From Lachnospiraceae bacterium (lineage in GTDB: Bacteria; Bacillota; Clostridia; Lachnospirales; Lachnospiraceae), in assembly GCA_017473115.1 (NCBI GenBank), contig JAFUNC010000011.1, forward strand, positions 56,586 to 120,585: a stretch of DNA of 64,000 nt, in the 5' to 3' direction. The position numbers and the translations under genes are program-made. A model generated the notes under the pieces. That model searched no databases. It was not told where the DNA came from and worked only from the letters and a program-made list of their open reading frames with translations. Every line of letters begins with the position of its first letter. Position 1 is the first letter of the stretch. This document shows, one piece after another, positions 4,698 to 62,019 of the stretch.

Positions 4698-4741
4698 AAA
4701 ATGCACTTAAGCGCAGGAATATGCCCTTGGGTGCATTTTTC
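4698..4741 (+). terminator. intrinsic terminator after the SASP gene
   Basis: The stem AAAATGCAC..AAG pairs with CTTGGGTGCATTTT through two G-U pairs and ends in a T-run. The region 4582-4697 before it shows no coding potential. Confidence 0.7.
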
Positions 4742-4871
4742 ATATGTATATTTTTAAACAGTATCTCAGAATCAGCATTGCTTTTTATCTTTGAATGCAT
4801 TATAATATAATCAATAATTAGGGAAAATACAATTTTAGTTCAATAAGAAAGCAACGAAAGGACGTGAGTTT

Positions 4872-28669: not shown

Positions 28670-28748
28670 TACCAATGAACTTACGCGCAATTCACTTCTT
28701 GGCAAGTTTGGGCGAAAACAGGTACTTAGATATTATTTCTCAAACACA

Positions 28749-28907
28749 GGTAATTGTATGAATATTTTTATTCCATAAGGGACCGTTTTCAACTGTGTCA
28801 GCACTTAACGAGTGCAAGTGTAGCGCCGCACGAGTTTAGTACTGCTACATCAGTTGAACGAGCGAAAGCGCGTCCCGTTGGAATATAAAATAATTCAGGC
28901 AATTACC
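28749..28907 (+). repeat. structured dispersed element, copy A
   Basis: A 159-base nested inverted-repeat element in the ABC-F leader. The outer arms GGTAATTG/CAATTACC continue inward through an AT-rich helix to TTCCA/TGGAA. Inner helices are GGGAC/GTCCC, TTCAACTG/CAGTTGAA, TGTCAG/CTG-ct-ACA and a variable apical hairpin (GTGC...GCAC). Conserved loops shared with copy B are ACTTNACGA, GAGTTTAGTA and CGAGCGAAAGCGCGT; the last contains a possible GNRA tetraloop (GC-GAAA-GC), which suggests the plus strand is the functional RNA. See copy B at 61868. Confidence 0.8.
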
Positions 28908-28982
28908 GTCCTAATAAAAAACACTACCGCTCTGCCATCCCCAAGAAGTAAATTGCACACAACCTCATCGAAAGGATAAACC

Positions 28983-61867: not shown

Positions 61868-62019
61868 GTTGTGCCAATATTTATATTCCATAATGAACCG
61901 TTGCGAAAGTGTCGGTACTTTACGAACAAACGAATCTAATTCGTTTTGTGAGTTTAGTATCCGTTACATTTTCGCACGAGCGAAAGCGCGTTCGGTTGGA
62001 ATATAAATATTGGCACAAC
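61868..62019 (+). repeat. structured dispersed element, copy B
   Basis: A 152-base nested inverted repeat with a perfect 23-bp outer stem (positions 61868-61890 with 61997-62019). Inner helices are GAAC/GTTC, TGCGAAAG/TTTTCGCA, TGTCGG/CCG-tt-ACA and an apical AAACGAAT/ATTCGTTT. Loops ACTTNACGA, GAGTTTAGTA and CGAGCGAAAGCGCGT match copy A at 28749. Read on the minus strand, the perfect outer stem is followed by TTTTTATTTTT, so this copy may also terminate the FecR transcript. Confidence 0.82.

Follow-up and report, generated by a model that had tools for sequence, protein, structure and literature searches.

Giant-hairpin repeats with a covarying structured core are abundant in Lachnospiraceae

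The attC sites of integrons are recognised by their structure, as folded single-stranded DNA, with their sequence free to vary. Amongst dispersed bacterial repeats, the REP/BIME sequences and the RAYT-associated REPINs are extragenic palindromes of high copy number that are non-autonomous and occur in inverted pairs, the REPs measuring 20-40 bp (available text of PMC3733652). The RU, RUP and BOX sequences and the MITEs, all short and dispersed, have been described as mobile or interspersed repeats (PMC2229807, PMC2759123 and PMC3049150, in the portions available). The MRSC motifs, 250 of which are counted in a table of PMC11109978, include covarying structured motifs with dozens of copies per genome and inconsistent orientation that may act as DNA; one of them, MRSC-65-2, is described in the accessible part of that paper as a single long stem with UYCCGG repeats, found in diverse phyla.

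We describe here a repeat from Lachnospiraceae, two copies of which (A and B) lie in the window, i.e. the whole 64 kb stretch of DNA that was analysed, of genome G000. Like the REP/BIME and REPIN sequences it is a dispersed, high-copy palindrome, but it forms nested hairpins of approximately 270 bp around a covarying core, and Y1 transposase went unmatched in three of the genomes that carry it. It shares with MITEs and with RU, RUP and BOX the character of a short, dispersed repeat; in comparison with these, its arms appear for the most part specific to the individual copy, not terminal repeats held in common, a clear target duplication is lacking, and its core keeps its structure whilst its sequence changes. 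Unlike integron attC sites, it was not seen in a cassette array, and it has conserved internal loops, not conserved end boxes. The nearest published kind is the mobile or repeat candidate class of PMC11109978, compared here by the description of MRSC-65-2 alone in the text available, from which the present element differs in having a multi-helix core with a GNRA hairpin and in being nearly confined to one family. Our literature search, which included the accessible portions of PMC8040213, PMC11109978 and PMC8632094, returned no paper describing a giant-hairpin repeat of Lachnospiraceae, and the family is apparently undescribed, although it may already be listed amongst the other MRSC motifs. 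On balance, we favour the reading that A and B belong to a mobile repeat, non-autonomous and chromosomal, whose palindromic copies contain a structured core for recognition.

Copies A and B had been picked out in an earlier note as two distant elements with one fold, and the segments and pairings quoted for them were all located in the sequence, with helices that fold as described and covary between the two copies. The outer stem of copy B is perfect over 23 bp (61869-61891 with 61997-62019). The outer arms quoted for copy A, GGTAATTG/CAATTACC, are also present, but the element does not end there, since a further arm pair overlooked at that time, GCAATTCACTTCTTGG/CCAAGAAGTAAATTGC, encloses them. 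Relative to 200 dinucleotide shuffles, the plus strand folded with z-scores of -8.5 (copy A) and -11.8 (copy B), and the minus strand, again relative to dinucleotide shuffles, with -8.0 and -11.9; because both strands fold about equally well, folding energy alone does not decide the strand. The genes neighbouring A and B in the window look ordinary; they matched SseB, a chemotaxis receptor, radical SAM, FecR, GGDEF and an ABC ATPase with an extension domain, which we take to be ABC-F, and the others were a Smr-like match below the cut-off and a gene without a Pfam match.

A 16-base segment containing the GNRA hairpin, searched with up to 3 mismatches, occurred at 38 sites in the 2.23 Mb window genome (G000), relative to 14 for a reversed-pattern control. 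From 28 motif sites, 25 own-genome copies were aligned (alignment A2); three were left out, namely L019, which lacked the upstream motif, and L003 and L034, both on the minus strand and cut short. The covariance model R1, built from A2 with A and B included, produced 44 matches in G000 at E <=1e-3, 37 of them above 80 bits. Amongst 61 relatives, 29 were matched, namely 27 of the 31 genomes of the same genus (own included) and two of the 30 from further genera. Copy number within the one genus ranged from 0 to 52, none being found in four of the 31 members, with 52 copies in G001, 43-44 in G000, 27 in G027 and 17 in G019. In a same-family sample, where just 8 candidates were scored per genome, at least 132 of 397 genomes and at least 116 of 334 genera (own included) were matched by R1. 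A covariance search of this kind, envisaged in the earlier note, thus recovered many copies beyond A and B rather than those two only.

A pattern scan of named genomes yielded at least 117 stretches. Among the matches listed (80 titles, counted by eye), 48 were from Lachnospiraceae, whilst the remaining titles named Clostridia, Clostridiales, Eubacteriaceae, single genera or nothing specific; the weak matches among those listed included a Bacteroides MAG (L250) and Candidatus Crickella (L219). When R1 was applied to 99 loci of other genomes, 118 matches were obtained in 98 of them, and these 118 copies were used to build a second covariance model, R2. This model matched 30 of 295 genomes across an order sample, every one in the own family, and 5 of 398 across a phylum sample, of which four belong to the own family and the fifth, G806, to a different one. 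The element family is abundant in Lachnospiraceae and rare outside it. The genome G806 itself holds at least 8 copies (e.g. L368) far from the home family, possibly through horizontal transfer. Searched against the 64 kb window, R2 gave exactly two matches, copies A and B (Table 1), in a test that is not wholly independent, as the R2 copies were collected and aligned with R1, which contains A and B.

Association with phages or plasmids was also considered and rejected as unsupported: the class I pattern had no exact match in viral contigs, a search that divergent copies would escape, and copy B, the sole blastn query, matched nothing amongst plasmids.

Table 1. Features of copies A and B, in window coordinates.
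Feature	Position	Strand	Basis
Copy A, whole element, nested palindrome of ~270 bp	28687..28956	+	Inserted stretch relative to the empty site; right end uncertain and may lie as far as about 28963
Copy A, left outermost arm GCAATTCACTTCTTGG	28687..28702	+	Pairs with 28941-28956 (15/16); inserted with the element
Copy A, right outermost arm	28941..28956	+	Pairs with 28687-28702; inserted with the element
Copy A, structured core and inner arms	28764..28894	+	R2 94.6 bits, E 6.7e-21; R1 128 bits
Copy A, segment CGAGCGAAAGCGCGT with hairpin GC-GAAA-GC (GNRA)	28859..28873	+	Motif and GNRA count
Copy B, element with perfect 23-bp outer stem	61869..62019	+	No further outer arm by eye
Copy B, structured core and inner arms	61879..62012	+	R2 93.7 bits, E 1.1e-20; R1 126.1 bits
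Copy B, segment CGAGCGAAAGCGCGT with GNRA hairpin	61977..61991	+	Motif and GNRA count

The core comprises about 115 nt of fixed architecture: a stem, a long P2 helix and a short P3 hairpin closed by a GNRA tetraloop, with CUUARYGA/GARYUUAG as the conserved internal loop of P2 and GUCGG/CCGYUAC as another of its parts. RNAalifold predicted 36 pairs from A2, of which 20 had changed on both sides. Counted directly, 96.4% of the A2 cells were paired relative to 83.1% in shuffles, and covariation was 0.404 relative to 0.165 in shuffles and 0.066-0.104 in slid controls, whilst further pair types (37) did not exceed those in shuffles (37.5). In the 118 copies of other genomes, whose alignment was fitted to the model and is hence biased towards it, 92.0% of cells were paired (69.1% in shuffles, 35-41% in slid controls), double changes affected 33 of the 36 pairs, doubly changed cells numbered 1016 as against approximately 304 in shuffles, and further pair types 113 as against 96.8. 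The proposal that compensatory changes maintain a conserved fold is accordingly supported in both the 25 own and the 118 other copies, and the lack of covariation that would have spoken against it did not occur.

One helix fared less well. Helix 3 (CCGU with 3' GCG) kept its pairs in just 80% of cells across the 118 copies, with one pair mostly broken, and the GNRA hairpin is the better reading of this region. That hairpin was present in 107 of the 118 copies and in 75 of a set of 78, relative to 4.3% in shuffled regions of the 118, and the N of the loop was A, G or C, never T, in 182 hairpins.

A second class of seven copies was observed in the own genome (L104-L110, e.g. G000:C9:112740-112862), in which the CUUARYGA/GARYUUAG module is missing and the GNRA hairpin is kept. 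CGUCGG and CCGYUACG are retained in six of the seven, and the left neighbouring gene reads towards the copy in all seven.

The fold did not match a family in Rfam. At the gathering threshold of Rfam release 15, no family covered A or B, the one match in the window being a tRNA elsewhere, and no family covered the copies in nine further loci (one from the own genome, one from the same genus and seven others). Permissive searches of A and B returned weak matches only. With no score above any gathering threshold, a known Rfam family was rejected as an explanation, in agreement with the first impression that the element is not a named family. The named locus holding the best-scoring copy, L229, also contains a TPP riboswitch (4704-4806, minus strand).

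The strand on which the fold acts was addressed through mismatches that only one strand would tolerate as pairs. G·T exceeded A·C by 72 to 19 amongst the 2905 cells of the five better-kept helices, by 148 to 60 over all helices (111 to 60 when pairs with a G·T majority were removed), and by 66 to 2 in A2 (10 to 2 without such pairs). This excess within the core, along with the GNRA hairpin, indicates that it is folding of the plus strand that matters; the core works as a single plus strand, which RNA and single-stranded DNA fit alike. The earlier suggestion that the plus strand is the RNA is hence supported as regards the polarity of the core but not, as it was put, as regards its RNA nature. 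Strictly aligned arms gave 37 G·T to 47 A·C, with no strand preference overall, and 26 to 14 in their inner part alone; these counts replace the 121 to 206 of looser arm alignments in which unpaired spacers had been included.

A multi-copy structured RNA gene or cis-regulatory RNA family, with the plus strand transcribed and bound by protein, would explain the strong covariation, the GNRA hairpin, the G·T over A·C bias of the core and the lean of the inner arms towards G·T. The whole arms, however, lack strand bias, and covariation with strand polarity, both present in the core, would equally be shown by folded single-stranded DNA. The genomic behaviour of the copies also bears on this explanation. 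G000 and G001 both carry copy A, and G027 lacks it, the flanks meeting there at a clean empty site. When the flanks of seven further copies were joined and looked for in G001, G019, G027 and G018, five of the seven sites were without the element in at least one relative; of the other two, L048 was filled in G027 and L043 was assigned to neither state. Junctions at these sites are blurred by intergenic divergence, that of copy A being the sole clean empty site. No clear target-site duplication was found at the copy A site (one clean site) or at the blurred further junctions.

Gene orientation around the copies was mixed. In G000, the neighbours of the 44 copies were arranged ++ (12), -- (16), +- (9) or -+ (6), one copy having no left gene; for 84 copies of named genomes, i.e. 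the R1 matches in named loci after removal of 14 that were partial or weak, with 20 matches in unnamed loci unused, the arrangements were ++ (26), -- (18), -+ (12) and +- (11), with one side unresolved in 17. A fixed orientation to the downstream gene was not found in either set. Mechanically called ORFs of at least 100 aa overlapped the core in 6 of the 44 G000 copies, three of them resembling upstream start extensions by eye, and 6 of the 84 named-genome copies overlapped an ORF of at least 90 aa. Random gene orientation, a range of 0-52 copies in one genus and sites filled or empty between relatives are unlike a cis-regulatory RNA, and a structured RNA family is in our judgement an unlikely explanation. 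The assertion of selection on RNA structure is likewise not sustained, since the copies are dispersed repeats with these same properties, RNA and single-stranded DNA are not separated, and the whole arms show no strand preference.

By eye, hairpins resembling intrinsic terminators adjoin the copies in the flanks of L047, L049, L050 and L053.

Retention by the host, as a DNA-binding or insulator/terminator-type site spread mainly by recombination and not by transposition, would suit the terminator-like hairpins that adjoin several copies by eye, and the core types held in common within a genome. We regard it as improbable, given that four of 31 genus members have no copy, that the whole element was inserted at the clean site, and that orientation is not fixed.

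Close neighbours are arranged in a characteristic manner that recalls the inverted pairs of REPs and REPINs. Amongst the 118 copies elsewhere, 12 of 13 neighbours less than 1 kb apart were head to head (P 6e-7), whilst of the two close pairs in the own genome one was head to head (G000:C2:189411-189880) and one in the same direction. Spacing in head-to-head pairs was 17-803 bp in the loci examined (e.g. L204, L165, L198, L358 of G357 and L360 of G285), and the copies found in G357 (four) and G285 (two) were all so paired. Partners were mostly, though not always, more alike than average, and the best unrelated copy was often closer than the partner.

Inverted pairs, dispersed palindromes, single-strand polarity and a target duplication that is not evident would all fit a giant REP/BIME-like element moved as single-stranded DNA by a Y1 (RAYT-type) transposase. 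Y1_Tnp, however, had no match in the copy-bearing G000, G027 and G019 (completeness only 85% for G000 and 97% for G027), although the gene may have been lost after spread, G001 with its 52 copies having one Y1 gene. The domain was matched in 17 of the 31 genus members, and by eye no relation to copy number was evident amongst them. We hold out little expectation for this explanation. Still less probable, and very much so, is a SINE-like retroelement whose RNA a reverse transcriptase acting in trans would copy back: the core is RNA-like and, of 10 copy-bearing genomes searched, 6 had RVT_1 genes over the cut-off, but none was matched in the copy-rich G000, G001 and G027, where such genes may again have been lost after spread.

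Neither a mobilising enzyme nor an autonomous copy was found in the loci and genomes examined. A mobiliser gene beside the copies was unsupported when 431 ORFs around the 84 copies were clustered, as the largest cluster comprised 11 loci, with four members within 600 bp of copies. The ORFs between the wider head-to-head pairs of L231 and L247 read as ordinary genes, and none was listed between those of L248.

Amongst own-genome copies, the 60-base arms were on average 0.55/0.53 alike in the 46 pairs whose cores agree to at least 90%, relative to 0.50/0.46 in pairs with cores 40-60% alike, and the outer arms have in common, by eye, only a loose CRATTYG start. Nonetheless, a copy's own arms pair far better than swapped arms (alignment score 80 relative to 47). 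Between orthologous copies, 65 of the 114 cells changed on both sides still formed a Watson-Crick pair, and 206 cells had changed on one side only, which is no more than suggestive of complementarity kept by compensatory change.

Orthologs were sought amongst 78 copies (37 of 44 own, and 41 of 96 in G001, G027 and G019), giving 28 orthologous pairs by flank similarity, three of them through one flank only. Core types at orthologous sites differ more than the flanks do, the similarity of the core falling at least 3 points short of that of the lower flank in 15 of the 28 pairs. At least one core was closer to a fetched paralog of its own genome than to its ortholog in 22 pairs, and both cores were in 15, although picking the best of many paralogs favours paralog over ortholog; in six pairs no paralog was closer. 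The comparison with flanks is the stronger evidence for core swapping. In L042/L323, flanks 94-96% alike and arms 0.93/0.99 alike surround a core at 0.80, with change confined to the core between the conserved inner arms. From such comparisons, cores at orthologous sites look as if swapped, and the sequence difference between A and B is probably due in part to core subtypes moving between sites. Only in 3 of the 28 pairs, however, did the core fall below both arms in similarity, which implies that arms usually diverge equally fast and lowers our confidence in a mobile repeat; fast evolution of helices would also mimic part of the apparent conversion.

As a mobile repeat, each copy may be viewed as a nested hairpin in which copy-specific but complementary DNA arms surround a core of fixed architecture. 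A putative trans-acting enzyme would recognise the core as a single strand, and we lean towards single-stranded DNA for that strand, because G-U pairs are few and the arms resemble DNA palindromes. The arms may stay complementary through palindrome correction or selection on the DNA hairpin, and ectopic gene conversion that runs across the conserved inner arms may keep the cores homogeneous. That the family constitutes a new class of mobile element, in which a folded plus single strand is recognised, copy-specific palindromic arms are borne, the core cassette is exchanged and the enzyme is of neither the Y1 nor the RT type, is a tentative suggestion about which we have more doubt than conviction.

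The family adds to the genomes of a major bacterial family an abundant repeat with RNA-grade covariation yet the behaviour of a mobile element, and cautions that screens for RNA motifs can catch folded DNA elements. Orthologous sites with different core types offer natural material for studying conversion between dispersed bacterial repeats, and the enzyme that recognises the core, if found, could give a new structure-guided recombination system.
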